This document shows, in pieces, positions 36,582 to 45,278 of a stretch of DNA of 57,440 bases (within the stretch, counting starts at the first letter, position 1; every line of letters begins with the position of its first letter). The stretch spans positions 1 through 57,440 of the forward strand of contig CADCIK010000006.1 of NCBI GenBank assembly GCA_902801415.1. Reading direction: 5' to 3'. This DNA comes from an uncultured Lachnospiraceae bacterium (GTDB lineage: Bacteria > Bacillota > Clostridia > Lachnospirales > Lachnospiraceae). The notes beneath the pieces are model-generated. The model did no database searches. It was not told the origin of the DNA and was given only the letters and a program-made list of their open reading frames with translations. Both the position numbers and the translations under genes were made by a program.

Positions 36582-38204
36582 TTATGCTTTGATCACTCTT
36601 GCCTCGAAAGGACGAAGGACGCCTTTATCGCCGGCCTGTCCGTAGTTGGATACCAGGATCTCTCCCTCAGGCATGCTGTCCGCTGTCACCTCAGTCCCTT
36701 TCAGATTGCAGTAAACGGAAAGCTTCTCGTCTCCGAGCGTTCTCTCGTATGCGATCACATCGGGTGTGCCGGTCTCAAGGAAGCGGATATCGCCGTCGGC
36801 GATGATCTCCATATCCTTGCGCAGCTGTACCAGCTTCTTGTAGAAAGCAAGGATCGAATCCTCGTCCTTCTCTTCCGTCTCCACATTGATATAGGTGTGG
36901 TTAGCCGGGATCGAGAGCCAGGGAGTTCCTGTCGTGAAGCCTGCCTGTTCAGAGCTGTCCCACTGCATGGGTGTTCTGCCGTTATCTCTGGAGCGCTCGC
37001 CGATGATGTGCAGCGCCTCCTCCGGTGTCTTGCCCTCGCCGCAGAGAATGGAATAATAATTCGTGCTCTCTACGTCCTGATACTGATCGATGGACGTGTA
37101 ACCGGCATTTGTCATGCCGATCTCTTCGCCCTGATAGATGTAGGGAGTTCCCCGCATCATATGGATGAGAACCGCCAGCATCTTGGCCGACTCTTTCCAG
37201 TAATTCCTGTCATCACCAAATCTGGAGACTGCGCGCGGCTGGTCGTGATTGCACCAAAACAGCGCGTTCCAGGCGCCGCCAGCCTGCATTCCCTCCTGCC
37301 ACTTGCAGAAGAGGTCCCGCAGCGCTTTGAAATCGGGATCCATGAGCGCCCATTTCTCTCCGCCCTTGTAATCCACCTTGAGATGGTGGAAGGAGAAGAC
37401 CATCTTGAGCTCTTTTTCGATCGGATTTGCATAGCGCAGGCAGTTGTCGAGGGATGTGGAAGACATCTCTCCAACTGTCATCATATCCGCGATCCCTGTA
37501 TCGTTGACCAGCTCTTTGATATGCTGATGGATCCTGGGACCGTCTGTGTAAAATCTTCTTCCGTCACCGATGAAATCATCTTCCAGCACATCCGGTTTGG
37601 AGATCAGGTTGACGACGTCGAAACGGAAGCCGCGCACGCCTTTTTCCTTCCAGAAGCGGATGACGTTCTTGAGTTCCTCCCTGACTGCGGGATTCTCCCA
37701 GTTGAGATCCGCCTGGGAAACGTCAAACAGATGCAGGTAGTACTTTCCAAGCGACGGGACATACTCCCATGCGTTGCCGCCGAACTTGGAGACCCAGTTT
37801 GTAGGCGCGTGGCCATCCACGGGATCTCTGAAGATGTAGTAGTCCATGTACTTGGGATCTCCGGCCAGAGCCTTCTGGAACCACTCGTGGTCCGTCGAAG
37901 TGTGGTTAAAGACCATATCGAACATCAGGCCGATCCCGTGCTCATTGGCTTCTCTGATCAGCGCTTCCGCGTCATCCATAGTGCCGAACATGGGATTTAC
38001 GGAGAAGTAATCCGCGATGTCATAGCCGTTGTCATTCATCGGCGATTTGAAGAAAGGTGTGATCCATACATAATCAATTCCCAATGACTGCAGATAATCC
38101 AGCTTGGAGCGGATTCCGTTCAGGTCGCCGATCCCGTCCCCGTTGGAATCGCAATAGGACTTGATATAGATCTGATATACCGTACTGTTTCTGAAGCTGC
38201 TCAT
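36582..38204 (-). CDS. treC: trehalose-6-phosphate hydrolase (GH13)
   Basis: The cytosolic enzyme splits trehalose-6-phosphate into glucose and glucose-6-phosphate. The 540-residue GH13 barrel has nucleophile D196 (GFRFDVVNLI), acid/base E246 (TVGEMSS) and D321 (NHDQPR). QIYIKSYCDSNGDGIGDLNG is the oligo-1,6-glucosidase/TreA subfamily start. Its place downstream of the trehalose PTS permease and repressor makes TreC more likely than a generic alpha-glucosidase. A hairpin without U-run separates it from treP. Confidence 0.92.
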   Translation of the reverse strand: MSSFRNSTVYQIYIKSYCDSNGDGIGDLNGIRSKLDYLQSLGIDYVWITPFFKSPMNDNGYDIADYFSVNPMFGTMDDAEALIREANEHGIGLMFDMVFNHTSTDHEWFQKALAGDPKYMDYYIFRDPVDGHAPTNWVSKFGGNAWEYVPSLGKYYLHLFDVSQADLNWENPAVREELKNVIRFWKEKGVRGFRFDVVNLISKPDVLEDDFIGDGRRFYTDGPRIHQHIKELVNDTGIADMMTVGEMSSTSLDNCLRYANPIEKELKMVFSFHHLKVDYKGGEKWALMDPDFKALRDLFCKWQEGMQAGGAWNALFWCNHDQPRAVSRFGDDRNYWKESAKMLAVLIHMMRGTPYIYQGEEIGMTNAGYTSIDQYQDVESTNYYSILCGEGKTPEEALHIIGERSRDNGRTPMQWDSSEQAGFTTGTPWLSIPANHTYINVETEEKDEDSILAFYKKLVQLRKDMEIIADGDIRFLETGTPDVIAYERTLGDEKLSVYCNLKGTEVTADSMPEGEILVSNYGQAGDKGVLRPFEARVIKA

Positions 38205-38222
38205 AGTACCGCCTTTCTGATT

Positions 38223-38250
38223 GCGGGTCTTCCTTGCAAAGAAGACCCGC
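38223..38250. promoter_or_regulatory. intercistronic hairpin between treP and treC
   Basis: A perfect GCGGGTCTTC/GAAGACCCGC 10-bp stem with an eight-base loop and no T-tract probably stabilises or cuts the polycistronic message. Confidence 0.55.
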
Positions 38251-38301
38251 CTCTCTCATTAACAGTATAACTTATGGTCCGCCTTTTATCAGGTCTTATG
38301 C

Positions 38302-40233
38302 TCAGGCAATCGAACCGATCGTTGTCTTTCCTGCCTCTACGTCAATTCCGTTCTTGAACGCAAGATTTTCATATCCGTTGTCGTCTGTGATGACCATCAT
38401 CGTTACGAGCGGGTGGCCTGCTGCCTTGATCTTCTCAGGATCGAACTCGATGAGGGGCTGACCCTTCTTTACTCTGTCATTTTCCTTGACCAGGCACTTG
38501 AAGCCGTCGCCATGCATGCCGACTGTGTCAAGACCGATGTGAAGGAGGATCTCTGCGCCGTTCATAAGGCGGAGGCCGATCGCATGATTGGAGTCAGGCA
38601 TTGTGATGGATACCATTGCCTCTGCAGGTGCTACGAGCACAGTGTCCACGGGATCGATAGCGATTCCCTCGCCGAGTGCCTTGGAAGCAAATACCTGATC
38701 CGGTACTTCCTCGATGGCAACAGTCTTGCCGGTAAGGAATGCGGTGAAAGCTGCGGGCTCACGATTTGCCTCTGCTTCAGCTGCCATAGCTGCTTCTTCT
38801 GCAGCGTTTTCAGCTTCTTTGTCAATGCCTCTGCCCTTGCCGATGAAATAGGTCAGAGCGAAAGGAACTGCGATTGCAATCGCCATAGCGATCGCGTAGC
38901 GTCCCCAGTAAGTAGGGATGATGGAAAGGATTCCGGGAAGTCCGCCGACGCCGATGGAAGAAGCCATACAGCCGGTTGCTACGGAAAAGATCGCCGCCAT
39001 GGCGGAACCTGTCATAGCGCAGACGAAGGGGAACATGTACTTGAGGTTGATACCAAAGATCGCGGGCTCTGTGACACCCAGGTAGCAGCTGATGCAGGAA
39101 GGGATGTTGACTTCCTGTTTCTCCGCATCCTTCTTCTGAAGAACGATCATGGCGAGAACTGCAGAACCCTGCGCGATGTTGGACAGTGCGATCATAGGCC
39201 AAAGCATTGTGCCGCCGAAGTCAGCGACCAGCTGCAGGTCGATCGCGTTGGTCATGTGGTGGAGACCTGTGATGACCAGCGGAGCGTAAACGAAACCGAA
39301 CACTGCAGCGAACAGGATCTTAACAGGGCCTGTGATACCGGCGTAAACAACTGCGGAGATCGCGGAACCGATCTTCCAGCCGATGGGGCCGAGAATGAAG
39401 TGCGCTGCCATAACCGAAAGTGTCAGGGAGAAGAACGGTACAAAGATCATCGATACAACGGAAGGAATGATCTTTCTGAAGAACTTCTCAAGGTAGACCA
39501 GGCAGAAAGCCGCGAGCATAGCGGGAATGACCTGTGCCTGATAACCGATCATGTTGACCTGTGCAAAGCCGAAATTCCACTTCGGAATGTCCGCTGCTGC
39601 TGTGCCTGCAACTGCGTAAGCGTTCAGAAGCTGTCCGGAGACCAGTGTCATACCAAGGACCAGACCGAGCATTTCAGTCGTGCCCATCTTCTTGGCAACA
39701 GACCAGCAGATACCTACCGGGATACCTACGTGGAACACTGCCTCGCCGATCAGCCACAGGAAGTGGTCTACGCCTGCCCAGAACTGGCTCAGCTCAACGA
39801 GCGTGTGGCCGCCCTGGAACACATAGAGCGAATCGATACAGTTACGGAAGCCGAGGATCAAACCGCCGGTGATGATCGCCGGGAGAAGCGGTGTGAAGAT
39901 CTCAGCCAGAACGGTTGCCAGCCTCTGCAGAGGGTTCTGGTTCTTCTTGGAAGCCTGTTTGACGGCGTCCTTGGAAACGCCGGAGACACCGGAAACTTCC
40001 GTGAAATCGTTGTAAAACTCGGAAACCGTATTTCCGATGATGACCTGGAACTGGCCCGACTGGGTGAAGGTTCCCTTAACGACCTTCATGCCCTCGATCT
40101 TGCCGATGTCGGCCTTCTTGGGGTCATTGAGCACGAAGCGCATGCGCGTCATGCAGTGTGCGACAGCGCCGATGTTCTCTTTGCCGCCGACGTACTGGAG
40201 CAATTCTTTTGCATCCTCTGTGTACTTGCCCAT
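38302..40233 (-). CDS. treP: trehalose-specific PTS enzyme IIBCA
   Basis: This permease imports and phosphorylates trehalose. Domain IIB (1-85) has the phospho-cysteine C27 (AHCMTRMRF). Domain IIC (about 110-460) has about ten membrane segments. A IIA(Glc)-type domain at the C-terminus carries the phospho-histidine in EILLHIGLDTVG and the second histidine in NHAIGLRL. Together these make a 643-residue IIBCA fusion, so no separate IIA is needed. The start at 40233 follows AGAGGAGGACAAT. It is controlled by a strong promoter with operator-like repeats at its start site. Confidence 0.94.
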   Translation of the reverse strand: MGKYTEDAKELLQYVGGKENIGAVAHCMTRMRFVLNDPKKADIGKIEGMKVVKGTFTQSGQFQVIIGNTVSEFYNDFTEVSGVSGVSKDAVKQASKKNQNPLQRLATVLAEIFTPLLPAIITGGLILGFRNCIDSLYVFQGGHTLVELSQFWAGVDHFLWLIGEAVFHVGIPVGICWSVAKKMGTTEMLGLVLGMTLVSGQLLNAYAVAGTAAADIPKWNFGFAQVNMIGYQAQVIPAMLAAFCLVYLEKFFRKIIPSVVSMIFVPFFSLTLSVMAAHFILGPIGWKIGSAISAVVYAGITGPVKILFAAVFGFVYAPLVITGLHHMTNAIDLQLVADFGGTMLWPMIALSNIAQGSAVLAMIVLQKKDAEKQEVNIPSCISCYLGVTEPAIFGINLKYMFPFVCAMTGSAMAAIFSVATGCMASSIGVGGLPGILSIIPTYWGRYAIAMAIAIAVPFALTYFIGKGRGIDKEAENAAEEAAMAAEAEANREPAAFTAFLTGKTVAIEEVPDQVFASKALGEGIAIDPVDTVLVAPAEAMVSITMPDSNHAIGLRLMNGAEILLHIGLDTVGMHGDGFKCLVKENDRVKKGQPLIEFDPEKIKAAGHPLVTMMVITDDNGYENLAFKNGIDVEAGKTTIGSIA

Positions 40234-40288
40234 ATTGTCCTCCTCTTTTGTTCTTTGCGTTCGTCCTATATGTCTGCTCTCATTTGAT

Positions 40289-40318
40289 GTTTGTACGAAC
40301 TTGTTTAAACTTGTTGAT
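40289..40318. promoter_or_regulatory. probable TreR operator region
   Basis: GTTTGTACGAAC (near-palindrome, 40289-40300) is followed by AACTTGTT-TA-AACTTGTT with a central GTTTAAAC palindrome. It lies across the predicted treP start site (40315) and just downstream, as expected for a repressor. Confidence 0.55.
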
Positions 40319-40321
40319 ATA

Positions 40322-40350
40322 AATATATCAGTCTCTACATCATAAGTCAA
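40322..40350 (-). promoter_or_regulatory. promoter of treP-treC
   Basis: The minus strand has TTGACT (40345-40350), a 17-base spacer and TATATT (40322-40327). Confidence 0.8.
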
Positions 40351-40482
40351 CAGGATTTTCGAAATTTTACAAACTTTTGACCGGGATGCAAACAAGAAGG
40401 ATGCTCCTGCTCGTTTGTCCGTTGGACGACAAGTGCATCTTCGTGCAAGTACGGGATGCGCCCCCTGCTTATCGCATAAAAG

Positions 40483-40517
40483 AGCAGCTGCAGTCAGGTT
40501 CCCCGGCTGCAGCTGCT
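40483..40517 (-). terminator. terminator of treR
   Basis: A perfect AGCAGCTGCAG/CTGCAGCTGCT stem lies 20 bases after the treR stop; the minus strand then reads CTTTTATG. Confidence 0.75.
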
Positions 40518-40536
40518 TTGACGTCATATATTCTTT

Positions 40537-41259
40537 TTACTTTCTTCTGCGTGCTACGGAGTAGAATGCGAACATATCCGGCCTGTGCCGCGACTGTGTG
40601 AACTCAAACATCTCTCCCGCCGCGTTGTAAGTCTCCGACGTGACGACCGCCATCGCGCCGCAGTCCACAAGGTGCAGATATTTCTCGTCGATCTCCGTGA
40701 TCTTCTCCACGGTGAGTGTCCTTCTCGTGGTGACGATCGTGTCTCCCACGACATTCTCCAGATATTCGTAAACTGACTTCTCCGCGATCTCTTTAGTCAG
40801 CCCCGGCACGACTCTTGTCAGAAACCAGTTGTTGTCCAGGATCATGGGAAGATCGTCAAAATACCGCACACGCTGAATGTAATACACTTCCTCTCCCACC
40901 GCGAATCCGGTCTTGCGCGCCAGATAGTCGTCCACCTTGAAGGTGGTGAAATGGATCACCTTCGTGCGGTATTCACGGTTGTTTCTGGCAGCCGCCTCCT
41001 TCATGCTCTCGATCACATCGAAAGAGAACAGGTTGGCCTGCGACTTCCGGTAGATCACTACGACGCCTTTTCCGTGTATGCTCTGCACATAGCTTTCATC
41101 CGCGAGCTTCGCGATCGCGCGCCGGATCGTATTGCGGGATACACCATATCGGGCTGTCAGGTTGTTCTCCGAGGGAAGAATGGACTGAGGGGCGTAGATC
41201 CCCTCCTCGATCTTCTCCTTGAGGTCATTGTATATAGCTTCATATTTCTGTGCGGGCAT
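40537..41259 (-). CDS. treR: GntR/HutC-family repressor of trehalose genes
   Basis: The 240-residue protein has an N-terminal winged helix (residues 5-70; SENNLTARYGVSRNTIRRAI) and a C-terminal UTRA ligand domain, the layout of Bacillus TreR, which is released by trehalose-6-phosphate. It precedes treP in the same direction, and the operator-like repeats at the treP start are its likely target. It follows an MFS gene by 29 bases, so some readthrough from that operon is possible. Confidence 0.88.
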   Translation of the reverse strand: MPAQKYEAIYNDLKEKIEEGIYAPQSILPSENNLTARYGVSRNTIRRAIAKLADESYVQSIHGKGVVVIYRKSQANLFSFDVIESMKEAAARNNREYRTKVIHFTTFKVDDYLARKTGFAVGEEVYYIQRVRYFDDLPMILDNNWFLTRVVPGLTKEIAEKSVYEYLENVVGDTIVTTRRTLTVEKITEIDEKYLHLVDCGAMAVVTSETYNAAGEMFEFTQSRHRPDMFAFYSVARRRK

Positions 41260-41288
41260 TGGCTGGCTTTTTCCTTCCGTTCCTTGGT

Positions 41289-42644
41289 TTACTTCTTAGG
41301 TACGATGATCCCCAGGATCTTCTCTTCGTTATAGCGGGACAGGATCAACGCTCCTGCAAGACAGATCACTGCGGCGGAGACTGCCGCGATCCGGTAACCC
41401 AGACCGGTCTCAGGGCCGATACTGGCGAAGGCCGTAAAGACGAGCATCGCAATACTTTGGCCGAATTTAAACGCGAACGTTCTGGCCGCGAAGAACATGC
41501 CCTCCCGGTTTTCTCCCGTGACGACCGCGTCCGCTTCCGCAATATCCGCGACGATCGCCTGCGGCAGAATGCCGAGGATAGCCATGGGGAAGGCCGCCGC
41601 GCAGACAATGATGATACCGAACACCAGGCCGGATCCGCCCATGAGTCCGGAAACCGCTGTGATCACATAGACGATCGACAGGCCGACAAAGCCGATCAGG
41701 ACCAGTTTCTTCTTGTTCATGCGGTGTGCCAGCGCATTGACCGGCATGTAACAAGCAAATGACAACAGTGTCATGGCCACATAGAGGATCGTCGTAAAGG
41801 TCTCCGGCAGCTTCATCAGGGATGTGATGAAGAAAGGAAGGCCCGTCTGGAAGATCGTCAGTCCCAGGAAATACAGGACGTCACTTCCAACGAAAATGCG
41901 GAAATCGCCGTTTCTGAAAGTCTTGATCAGGGATGTGAACGCGTCGTCATTGGAAGGGACGGTGTGCACATACTCTTTCTCATTGATCGTGAAAGTAGGC
42001 ACCAGAAGTGCCGCAAGTCCGATCAGCGCAAGGATCAGGAACGTGATGCGGATAGCCATGATCCTTCCCAGCGACGGCTCCATCGCGCCCCAGATAAAAG
42101 GCGCCGCATATCCGATCGCCGATCCCAGAAGGAACGTGACGGAAATATAGGTCGAAATACTGATGCGCGTGTCCTGCGTAGTTCCCAGTTCGGAGATCAG
42201 TGCGTTAAAAGGCGTACAGTACGTCGTCATGAACAGGTAGAATAATAAAAGCGTTACCAGAAGCCAGATGCAGTTGACTGTCGAGATACTGTTAACAGGC
42301 GCCCAGAATACAAGGACCGTGACCGCCGCGAAAGGCACCGCGATCTTCTGCATAAACGGGATCCTTCTCCCTCTGGGGTTCGTGGACCGGTCAGACATAT
42401 TCGCGATCATGGGATCTGTCACCGCGTCAAACACTCTTCCGAGTGCCGCGATGCCGCCGATCACGGTCGCTATTCCGAGGATCACTCGTCCCTGCGGGAT
42501 GAACAGCGTCTGTCCCGATGCGATAGAATCCGCGTCAGGCTGGTAAAAATAGACCAGCCAGTTGGTGATCAGTGCCGACAGAAGCGACCATCCGAACTGT
42601 CCGATCGCAAAACACCACATTTTCCCCTTCGATAAAGTCTTCAT
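41289..42644 (-). CDS. MFS transporter, glycoside-pentoside-hexuronide (GPH) type
   Basis: The 451-residue carrier has about twelve membrane segments. The loop DAVTDPMIANMSDRS (about 73-87) and the NPRGRRIPF segment are typical of GPH symporters that co-import glycosides or related compounds with cations. It lies between the TAXI/GltS genes and treR in one direction, so it could belong to either locus. Its substrate is not evident. The gap from the upstream small gene is 71 bases and contains a 23-bp inverted repeat. Confidence 0.85.
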   Translation of the reverse strand: MKTLSKGKMWCFAIGQFGWSLLSALITNWLVYFYQPDADSIASGQTLFIPQGRVILGIATVIGGIAALGRVFDAVTDPMIANMSDRSTNPRGRRIPFMQKIAVPFAAVTVLVFWAPVNSISTVNCIWLLVTLLLFYLFMTTYCTPFNALISELGTTQDTRISISTYISVTFLLGSAIGYAAPFIWGAMEPSLGRIMAIRITFLILALIGLAALLVPTFTINEKEYVHTVPSNDDAFTSLIKTFRNGDFRIFVGSDVLYFLGLTIFQTGLPFFITSLMKLPETFTTILYVAMTLLSFACYMPVNALAHRMNKKKLVLIGFVGLSIVYVITAVSGLMGGSGLVFGIIIVCAAAFPMAILGILPQAIVADIAEADAVVTGENREGMFFAARTFAFKFGQSIAMLVFTAFASIGPETGLGYRIAAVSAAVICLAGALILSRYNEEKILGIIVPKK

Positions 42645-42715: not shown

Positions 42716-42907
42716 TCATTTCTTTTTCTTTTTCCTGTGCAGATGGATCTCGGGAATCGCGACATTGTCATAGACGATGTCCTTCTTCTCCAGCTCCTCA
42801 TTCTCCTCCGCATCCGCCTTCTTCTGTTTCTCTTCAAACGAATCGGAATGGATCTCAGGCACAGCAAGATTCTCTGAATTAATGTGAAACAGATTCTTTA
42901 AATTCAT
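42716..42907 (-). CDS. 63-residue protein with two PEIH repeats, unknown
   Basis: I do not recognise this protein. It has two similar segments, NLAVPEIHSDS (14-24) and NVAIPEIHLHR (48-58), separated by a highly charged Glu/Lys helix-like stretch, and it ends in a run of lysines. There is no signal peptide or membrane segment. GAGGAG lies about nine bases before the ATG, and the gene sits 20 bases after the gltS stop, so expression with the transporter is likely. A cytosolic adaptor or regulator of the TAXI-GltS pair is conceivable, but nothing shows it. Confidence 0.72.
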   Translation of the reverse strand: MNLKNLFHINSENLAVPEIHSDSFEEKQKKADAEENEELEKKDIVYDNVAIPEIHLHRKKKKK

Positions 42908-42927: not shown

Positions 42928-44124
42928 TCAGACCAGATTGATGAAAAACGTGATGACAAGTGAATTGATGAAATCCGCGAAGAGACTTCCCACGATCGGT
43001 ATCAGCAGGTAGGCCTTGATCGAAGGTACATATTTGTCGCAGATCGCCTGCATGTTGGCCATCGCGTTAGGCGTCGCCCCCATACCGAATCCGCATGTTC
43101 CCGCTGTGATCACGGCCGCGTCATAATCTGCGCCTGTGAAGCGGAAGATCACAAATCTCGCGAACAGGTACATAAACGCAAGCTGAACCAGAAGAAGGAC
43201 GACCAGCGGAAGCGCCAGCGCGGCCAGCTGCCAGATCTTGAGCGTGATCATGGCTATGCCGAGGAACAGGGACAGGCAGATACCGCCGAGGTCATTGATC
43301 TCACCCATATAGACCTTGACAGCACCTGTTGCTTCACCGATGTTGCGGATGACAGCCGCTACGATCATCGCGCCGATATAGACAGGGAAAGTCATGCCCG
43401 TCTTGGTCAGAAGTGCCGAGACCAGTGTACCCAGACCGACTGTTACACACAGCTCGAAAACGGCGGGTGCGTACTGGTCAATATGTCTGACGTGCTGCTC
43501 TTCATCTTCCTCGAAGATCTCGTCTCCCTCATCGGCCGACTTTGCGGTCTCAAGAAGATTATACTTCCTGATCAGTGAATTTCCAAGGGGACCGCCGATC
43601 AAGCTGCCTGCGATCAAACCGAACGTTGCGGCCGCCGTAGCGATCGTCGTCGCGCCCTGAATTCCAAAGTCCTCAATGACCGGACCGAAAGCGCCGGCTG
43701 TACCGTGGCCGCCGACCATGGGAACAGAGCCCGTACACAATCCGATCAGAGGATTGACGCCGAGAATGCGGGAAACGCCTACAGCCAGAACGTTCTGCAG
43801 GATGATGAGAAGGATGACCTGGATCAGGAAAATGATCAGGTCCTTGCCGCCTTCCTTGAGGACGGCCAGATTCGCCTGGAATCCTACGGAAGTAAAGAAA
43901 AATACCATGCAGATCTCGCGGAATGTGTCGTCATAGACAAATTCCACAACGCCGCATACATAGAGAATACAGGAGAGGATCGCGACAACAAGTCCTCCGA
44001 CGACGGGCGCGGGGATACAGAAAGTTTCCAGGAAGCGGATCCTCTTTCTGAGGAACCGGCCCAGCATCAGAACGCCGACTGCGATCGCAAGCGTAAGATA
44101 TTTGTTGATTTCGATAGTGAGCAT
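42928..44124 (-). CDS. gltS: GltS-type sodium symporter
   Basis: The 398-residue protein has the ESS-family layout of about ten membrane segments in two inverted halves, with GGHGTAGAFGP in the first half (about 150-160) and the matching TAGTCGFGMGATPNAMANM in the second. E. coli GltS imports glutamate with sodium and needs no binding protein. Here the gene starts 12 bases after a TAXI solute-binding lipoprotein. A binding-protein-assisted GltS is therefore suspected, and the substrate may be glutamate or a related acid. Confidence 0.9.
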   Translation of the reverse strand: MLTIEINKYLTLAIAVGVLMLGRFLRKRIRFLETFCIPAPVVGGLVVAILSCILYVCGVVEFVYDDTFREICMVFFFTSVGFQANLAVLKEGGKDLIIFLIQVILLIILQNVLAVGVSRILGVNPLIGLCTGSVPMVGGHGTAGAFGPVIEDFGIQGATTIATAAATFGLIAGSLIGGPLGNSLIRKYNLLETAKSADEGDEIFEEDEEQHVRHIDQYAPAVFELCVTVGLGTLVSALLTKTGMTFPVYIGAMIVAAVIRNIGEATGAVKVYMGEINDLGGICLSLFLGIAMITLKIWQLAALALPLVVLLLVQLAFMYLFARFVIFRFTGADYDAAVITAGTCGFGMGATPNAMANMQAICDKYVPSIKAYLLIPIVGSLFADFINSLVITFFINLV

Positions 44125-44136
44125 TGACTTCCCTCC

Positions 44137-45105
44137 TTACTTTTCTACTGCGCCGACCGAAACGCCGCACTCTTGATAGTACTTAGCCGCACCGGCATGG
44201 AAGGGAATCGTGACCGACTCGACCGCATTCTGCTCCTGCAGATCAAATTCCACCGGGACCGCGCTGTTGAGCGCTGCCTTTTCCTTGAACAGAGCGCTTG
44301 TGATCGTGTAAACAGTCTCCTCAGGCAGCTTGTTGGAGGCAAGAAGGACAGACATCACTGCCAGTGTTTTGATATCGGTGTCCTGTCCGTTATAAGTGCC
44401 CGCAGGGATCACGGCTTCCGTGTAGTATTTGTATGCTTTTGTCAAAAGATTGCTCTGCTGGTGGTCAATAGGAATGAGGCGGACCGGCGTCTCTTTGGCC
44501 AGATCTGAGATCACCTGGGCCGGCGCGCCTGCTGTACAGAACATGGCGTCGATCGAACCGGCGCTCAGCGCGTTCACAGCTTCCGTATAGGTCATATTCT
44601 CAACCGTCAGCGTATTGGATGTAAGGCCGTATGCCTGCAGGATCTGAACAGCGTTCTTCTGTGTTCCGGAGTCCTCTTCACCCACACTTATCGTCGAACC
44701 AACAAGATCACTCACCTTTGCAATGTGTGAATCCGCGCGGACCACGATCTGTATAGCTTCCGGATACAGCGCTGCCACTGCAGAGTAACCCTGCATAGCA
44801 GCCGTTTCCAATGTGCCGTTGTACATCTCGTCGATCACATCGGACTGTGCCAGCGCTAGTTCCAGGTAATCCCCCGAAAGGAGGCGGATATTGGCTGCCG
44901 AACCTGCTGTCGTTTTCACCTCTGTGCTGATCTTATATGGATCCGCGGAGAGCGTGGAGGACAGTGCACGTCCCAACGAATTGTAATTTCCGCCTTCGCC
45001 TGCTGTCCCGATCCGCAGCTTTTCCTTCTGCCCGCAGCCTGTAAAAGCCGCAAGGATCAAGACCAGAGCAATCGCCAATGCTGTTGTTTTTCTTGCTACT
45101 TTCAA
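44137..45105 (-). CDS. TAXI-family solute-binding lipoprotein
   Basis: The 322-residue protein has a signal peptide with lipobox AFTGC (C24), then the TAXI (TRAP-associated extracytoplasmic immunogenic) fold: KLRIGTAGEGGNYNSLG at 29-45, LSGDYLELALAQSDV, and GSIDAMFCTAGAP in the second lobe. TAXI proteins normally deliver acidic solutes such as glutamate or 2-oxoglutarate to fused TRAP membrane proteins. No TRAP small or large membrane subunit is present; the next gene is a GltS symporter. GGAGG lies upstream of the start. Confidence 0.9.
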   Translation of the reverse strand: MKVARKTTALAIALVLILAAFTGCGQKEKLRIGTAGEGGNYNSLGRALSSTLSADPYKISTEVKTTAGSAANIRLLSGDYLELALAQSDVIDEMYNGTLETAAMQGYSAVAALYPEAIQIVVRADSHIAKVSDLVGSTISVGEEDSGTQKNAVQILQAYGLTSNTLTVENMTYTEAVNALSAGSIDAMFCTAGAPAQVISDLAKETPVRLIPIDHQQSNLLTKAYKYYTEAVIPAGTYNGQDTDIKTLAVMSVLLASNKLPEETVYTITSALFKEKAALNSAVPVEFDLQEQNAVESVTIPFHAGAAKYYQECGVSVGAVEK

Positions 45106-45224
45106 AACTATCCCTCCTAACTGTTCATGATCTATATGATCCCCGATACTCTATTTTAACACTGTGACTTGTTAATGCGGGATTTTTTTGCGCCGGTACT
45201 GTGGTTTTTTCGCTTGCAAAATGC

Positions 45225-45257
45225 AAAAAAGACCGGTGCAGTGTTTCACTGCACCGG
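45225..45257 (-). terminator. terminator of the HD-protein gene
   Basis: A CCGGTGCAGTG/CACTGCACCGG stem is followed by TTTTTT on the minus strand. Confidence 0.88.
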
Positions 45258-45278
45258 CCCTGCCGCTGAATCTCTTAT

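Follow-up and report, generated by a model that had tools for sequence, protein, structure and literature searches.

A cluster of three minus-strand genes, located in a 57,440-nucleotide stretch of DNA from an uncultured Lachnospiraceae bacterium (GCA_902801415.1, contig CADCIK010000006.1, positions 1-57,440; hereafter the window), is proposed to encode a three-part, binding-protein-dependent glutamate importer. The components would be a TAXI-family substrate-binding lipoprotein, the sodium/glutamate symporter GltS and a small protein, here termed M, as cytosolic partner of the central GltS loop. We assign this reading a probability of about 0.58. At the sequence level it is supported by the TAXI-GltS pair and its conservation, by glutamate-binding residues that have been retained, and by an assembly that lacks a dedicated TRAP permease. 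M is subject to selection at the protein level; where upstream sequence is seen, its two-motif form adjoins gltS, and it coincides with a signature in the GltS loop. The original prediction for this DNA had described a TAXI-type lipoprotein with lipobox cysteine C24 and, 12 bases beyond its stop codon, a GltS of 398 residues, and both coordinates and profile matches agree with this. Its account of the genes left the strand unstated and overlooked the conserved third gene at 42716-42907, which encodes M.

The TAXI gene (44137-45105) begins with TTG, has a plausible ribosome site and encodes a protein of 322 amino acids (aa), in which C24 directly follows FTG. The protein matched TIGR02122 with 277.4 bits (cut-off 84.35; profile positions 4-320 of 320) and PF16868 with 238.4 bits. 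gltS (42928-44124, 398 aa) follows on the same strand after a gap of 12 bases (44125-44136). Its product matched the equivalog profile TIGR00210 with 361.4 bits (cut-off 310.75; profile positions 2-397 of 398) and PF03616 with 380.1 bits. Profile searches of the whole assembly (116 contigs, 86.06% complete) revealed one TAXI match over the cut-off and one GltS. A second, weak TAXI match on contig 89 (22.2 bits) stayed below the cut-off.

Pairing of TAXI and GltS genes exceeds chance. A search for close relatives with the TAXI protein yielded five loci, and the nearest relatives found were Lachnospiraceae bacteria. In four of the loci (72-84% identical) gltS directly follows the TAXI gene; the fifth (L040; 27% identity, 40 bits) is probably not a TAXI gene and has no GltS. 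GltS was then sought in a sample of 397 genomes of the family, with up to four candidates scored per genome, so that GltS and pair counts are lower bounds. We counted a pair when a TAXI gene was fused to gltS or lay on its strand no more than 1500 bases away, and PF03616 matches below 100 bits were left out of the neighbourhood comparison in this and the following sample. At least 27 of the 397 genomes contain a pair: at least 12 with TAXI first, at least 2 with a fusion and at least 13 with GltS first, one of the latter with a broken TAXI gene (L153). Both fusions are reading frames of 716 aa, found in two genomes. Hence the pair, whose adjacency or fusion in other genomes had been suggested as a check, recurs in the four close loci and across the family in either order or fused. 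A class-wide sample of 391 genomes, again scored for up to four candidates each so that its GltS counts are lower bounds, gave 42 rows when the genome under study was set aside and every GltS match above 250 bits was taken; three of them are TAXI-first pairs and 39 have no adjoining TAXI gene. Three GltS genes in tandem were observed in each of two class genomes that belong to another family (L202:4098-8517 and L206:4089-8335).

Phylogenetic trees were calculated for both proteins. The GltS tree contains 58 rows, of which 53 come from family genomes, one from the window and four from the close loci. Sixteen rows are TAXI-first, 13 GltS-first, two fused and 27 without TAXI, one of these cut by a contig end. 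Two GltS sequences shorter than 330 aa (L154, L156) and the full-length L053 (G048, contig 216) were left out; all three are without TAXI neighbour, M or loop signature, with only 1.5 kb visible on each side of L053. One clade of 18 rows (support 100/99) holds 15 of the 16 TAXI-first and both fused carriers together with a single row lacking TAXI, and the GltS-first rows are placed far from it. In the TAXI tree (54 rows; proteins shorter than 280 aa were excluded, among them the broken L153 protein), TAXI-first and fused proteins likewise form a clade of 17 rows (15/16 and 2/2, respectively; support 100/99) outside the TRAP-linked proteins. All 12 GltS-first TAXI proteins form another clade (100/100). 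The remaining TAXI-first pair, L077, has a GltS placed among carriers without TAXI and a TAXI protein falling inside the TRAP-linked ones, a label that is based on neighbouring long reading frames (21 neighbours, 10 tested, all TRAP_fused). This suggests that at least three separate TAXI-GltS pairings arose in this family.

In relatives, TAXI genes not paired with gltS have a TRAP_fused neighbour in 10/10 cases tested (10 of 21 neighbours, two of them truncated and just under the cut-off), indicating that TAXI genes there stay with their permease. This speaks against a window TAXI protein that serves a TRAP permease encoded elsewhere in its genome, a reading that we regard as very improbable. 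The profile search found no TRAP_fused match over the cut-off in the assembly, in line with the original prediction, which had noted the missing TRAP subunits for the window. DctM gave three matches over the cut-off, two long ones on contigs 24 and 80 and a partial one of 28.9 bits. Both long DctM genes adjoin DctP-like binding-protein genes of their own, the name DctP being assigned by reading and not by profile. On contig 24 a DctQ-like gene, likewise named by reading, accompanies DctM; contig 80 begins inside DctM. In favour of a distant permease, a TRAP_fused gene could be missing from a genome that is 86% complete. With this limit, a dedicated TRAP permease elsewhere, which the original prediction had named as a finding that would speak against it, was dismissed. 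At five TRAP-linked TAXI loci (L007, L008, L010, L011, L013) a short reading frame of ~154-190 aa was observed between TAXI gene and TRAP permease, which we take, by resemblance only, to be reminiscent of DUF1850.

A TAXI-GltS pair has been described in Bordetella pertussis (BP0403-BP0402; Jaques et al. 2025, Commun Biol, PMC12344293), and the study gives a Kd of 180 nM for glutamate binding. It describes Y45 and Q93 of VcGluP as the most influential residues for glutamate binding (PMC12344293). Y41 and Q87 of the window TAXI protein align with these two residues. The equivalents of Y41 and Q87 are kept in 16/16 TAXI-first and 2/2 fused proteins. Among TRAP-linked TAXI proteins the tyrosine is kept in 19/21 and the glutamine in 16/21. 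None of the 12 GltS-first TAXI proteins has either residue; they carry Met/Leu and Ser/Thr in columns that may be misaligned against Y41 and Q87, as these proteins are distant. Window GltS, two other TAXI-first carriers and one fused carrier exceed the TIGR00210 cut-off, and two GltS-first carriers tested remained below it (238.2 and 253.0 bits versus 310.75). Glutamate is likely the substrate of the window system. The GltS-first lineage, a second lineage of opposite gene order with a divergent GltS (L078-L081, L144-L146, L148-L152 and, with the broken TAXI gene, L153), probably handles another substrate. Its lack of the glutamate residues suggests that the TAXI-GltS class handles other substrates too, an idea called unconvincing by Jaques et al. 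for their own system (PMC12344293).

GltS is known to function alone, and 66 of 100 GltS rows have no TAXI neighbour (27/58 in the family set, one cut by a contig end, and 39/42 in the class set). The carrier might accordingly transport glutamate by itself, with the TAXI lipoprotein, as a sensor or scavenger, linked to it through regulation alone. We regard this as unlikely. Two genomes encode TAXI and GltS as one polypeptide, the pairing appears to have arisen several separate times, and binding data and modelling have been published for the Bordetella pair (PMC12344293). The binding-protein-dependent GltS postulated by the original prediction is thus supported by conservation, gene order, fusion, separate clades and the Bordetella work. 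As an idea it is sound but was already published in 2025 (PMC12344293), where the authors state that functional coupling needs experimental verification.

The third gene, encoding M, lies 20 bases after gltS on the minus strand (42716-42907, 63 aa). M consists of two copies of a motif that approximates [DE]NxA[IV]PE[IV]H, separated by a variable charged linker and flanked by lysine-rich ends. The first copy, ENLAVPEI, is encoded at 42852-42874 and the second, DNVAIPEI, at 42747-42769, both on the minus strand. The protein is probably cytosolic and has no hydrophobic segment (highest mean hydropathy over 19 residues 0.03). M is kept in the four close loci with 61-75% identity. Ratios of nonsynonymous to synonymous differences (pN/pS, uncorrected; 10 pairs of 5 sequences) were 0.17-0.36 for M, 0.05-0.13 for GltS and 0.17-0.32 for TAXI. 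M evolves under protein-level selection.

Twelve M sequences gave no NCBIfam match at E values up to 1. Single-member matches in PHROGs (best E value 0.23) and Pfam (best 0.081) were taken as chance, and the best match among solved structures had an E value of only 0.81. An AlphaFold2 model of M contains one helix (residues 22-47) between the motifs; owing to its low scores (predicted local distance difference test, pLDDT, 67; predicted template modelling score, pTM, 0.27) it was not used as evidence.

The distribution of M was analyzed with profiles that ignore gene position. A profile built from five M sequences found matches in 11/397 family genomes, and in nine of these the match immediately follows gltS. 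In G014 (L074:5020-5568), which is among the nine, it is a NUDIX protein that carries a single M motif at its N-terminus. Similarly, an isochorismatase-family protein directly after gltS in G120 (L075:4470-5084) begins with one M motif. A wider profile matched 4/391 class genomes, namely the genome under study, G443, G645 and G646. Both G443 and G645 belong to another family and show the order TAXI, GltS, M. Adjacency to gltS holds for three of these four, and the exceptions over both searches are G102, G339 and G646. The matches in G339 and G646 were judged to be chance, as there is no M-like reading frame at either place. A diverged M following gltS in a further genome outside the family (G397, L219) was missed by the wider profile and found by its motif. 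In G017 (L085) GltS and M occur without a TAXI neighbour. Wherever upstream sequence is seen, a two-motif M adjoins gltS. A contig from a viral collection opens with a two-motif M (L166:1-210), with no sequence upstream; it is probably bacterial DNA beside a prophage.

The distribution of M bears on another explanation, in which TAXI and GltS operate as published, and M, a small protein in its own right, merely shares their transcript without contacting GltS. Three TAXI-first pairs (L121, L138, L077) and both fusions do without M. G102 encodes a 50-aa relative of M with a single motif (L155:6396-6548), just upstream of a GGDEF-EAL gene, and has no GltS match in its genome. Coincidence of M with the loop signature described below is also largely confined to one clade. 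Against such independence, M stays beside gltS where TAXI is missing, as in G017, and in other bacterial families. Moreover, the DNA pattern of the motif occurs in the genome under study only as the two copies in M and one in-frame site in an unrelated frame of 414 aa (reversed-pattern control: 0 matches), by which a role of the motif as a genome-wide tag was also rejected. Finally, L138 has neither M nor the loop signature. An M without GltS contact is, on balance, a minority possibility, though the most serious one.

The loop in question is the central one, between the two halves of GltS. It includes the protein's segment of lowest hydropathy, residues 195-213 (43486-43542, minus strand), which contains EDEEQHVR. 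The signature E[DE]ExxHx[RK] was chosen by comparing family GltS rows with and without M, and the class rows served as test set. Within the family set it is present in 14/14 rows in which gltS precedes the gene for M or for a motif-capped enzyme and in 2/44 of the remaining rows, both of them fusions. Among the 42 class rows it was found in all three with M and in none of the other 39. Taken together, 17/17 rows followed by M (15) or by a motif-capped enzyme (2) carry the signature, compared to 2/83 others; since rows share descent, these counts are not independent trials. GltS is listed with 10 helices and an outside N-terminus (PMC8396727) and is described as two domains of five helices (PMC12502697). 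By our reading, the central loop, which comes after helix five, would then be cytosolic and face the side where M should be. The central cytoplasmic loop is said to modulate GltS turnover, judging from the title of a 2011 report by Krupnik. Solved relatives of GltS were not detected by sequence at E values up to 1.

Several observations weigh against the three-part importer. M and the signature mark essentially one GltS clade, and common descent explains most of their coincidence. Few independent events are available, with one joint absence, L138, which sits on a long branch. The two carriers that bear the signature without M are the TAXI-GltS fusions of one genus. TAXI-first pairs lacking M (L121, L138, L077) indicate that M is not essential to the pairing, and the GltS-less genome G102 means that the M motif may bind something other than GltS. 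The system is also rare: G267, the only further genome sampled from this genus, gave neither a GltS nor an M match. An AlphaFold2 model of GltS from five close sequences reached a pLDDT of 41 and was discarded. L138 itself is the most telling case for the link between M and the signature: it is nested within the M clade (support 99/97) and lacks both.

The FtsZ C-terminal tail has a core consensus [ILV]x[IV]PxFL followed by basic residues. FtsZ tails of five genomes (L157-L161) read IPSFLR, IPEFLK, IPEFLQ, IPDFLK and VPDFLK and are, by eye, like the M core [LV]A[IV]PE[IVF]. M could in this case be an adaptor that links GltS, via an FtsZ-tail-like motif, to FtsZ-tail-binding proteins, and the same motif does cap the N-terminus of the NUDIX and isochorismatase-family proteins right after gltS. 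The likeness covers a short core only (hydrophobic-x-[IV]-P-[EDS]), the next residue in M is mostly His and not Leu, and such a core could recur by chance. We consider the FtsZ resemblance a weak lead and an adaptor of this kind improbable.

For the three-part importer we infer the following mechanism. Anchored on the outer side of the membrane, the TAXI lipoprotein would capture L-glutamate and pass it to GltS, as proposed for Bordetella. GltS would import glutamate with sodium via an elevator-type movement. M, in the cytosol, would dock on the acidic central loop of GltS through one or both motif copies and its charged segments. GltS is reported as a dimer (PMC12344293), so that one two-motif M could span both subunits. 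From the inside M most probably serves to regulate or stabilise GltS, or to tether something to it. The fullest version of the model combines an external binding protein and a carrier with a cytosolic twin-motif M that grips the loop and gates or tunes the carrier. In this version the motif is portable, and the single copies on the NUDIX and isochorismatase-family proteins that follow gltS suggest a docking tag that recruits proteins to the carrier. We put this version forward tentatively, at a little short of even odds.

Upstream of the TAXI gene, a promoter-like site (TTAACA-16-TAGAGT, 45148-45175, minus strand) and a terminator-like hairpin of 15 pairs following the preceding HD-domain gene (45229-45261, minus strand) were noted, both as consensus matches only; promoter-like sites numbered 6 against 2.0 expected in the 3 kb scanned. 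Downstream of M, genes on the same strand (36582-42644) encode a GPH-type sugar symporter, a GntR/UTRA regulator, a phosphotransferase system (PTS) EIIABC protein and an alpha-amylase-family hydrolase. This group resembles a cluster for sugar uptake. A reading frame that starts like the GPH symporter also comes after M in the four close loci.

Among the full texts searched, the term TAXI-GltS was found only in PMC12344293. According to this paper, a TAXI protein of conventional size stands next to GltS in several organisms, and fusions occur mostly in Lachnospiraceae. Its main text (figures and supplements aside) contains none of the expressions 'third gene', 'hypothetical' and 'small protein'. 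Literature matches to the letters of the M motif were judged unrelated from their listings alone, and the three-gene form TAXI-GltS-M was not found described in the literature searched. The window pair is a further member of the TAXI-GltS class, first described in 2025, here in a gut-type anaerobe with genes amenable to work in standard laboratory strains, and the form with three genes represents a variant. Binding of M to GltS, if it occurs, would add a cytosolic subunit to a class thought to consist of binding protein and carrier only, and would offer a natural handle on control of GltS turnover through the central loop. With the motif conserved and a loop signature at hand, this idea is testable with short peptides.

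The closest known systems include the B. pertussis TAXI-GltS system. In both this system and the window cluster, a TAXI lipoprotein lies beside GltS without an adjacent TRAP permease, and the key tyrosine and glutamine are conserved. The B. pertussis TAXI protein has 503 aa with extra N-terminal and helical domains, whereas that of the window has 322 aa and lacks them. In B. pertussis gltS comes first with a 3-base overlap, while in the window TAXI comes first with a 12-base gap. Unlike the B. pertussis system as described in the main text of that study, the window cluster has the conserved third gene M after gltS. With TAXI-TRAP systems (TIGR02122 and TIGR02123) it shares the TAXI family and the two residues, which are present in most of the TRAP-linked TAXI proteins compared, but the membrane partner is GltS of the ESS family and not TRAP_fused. 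With stand-alone GltS/ESS carriers (TIGR00210, PF03616) it shares a full-length GltS over the equivalog cut-off, and it differs from them by an adjacent binding protein, the central-loop signature and M.

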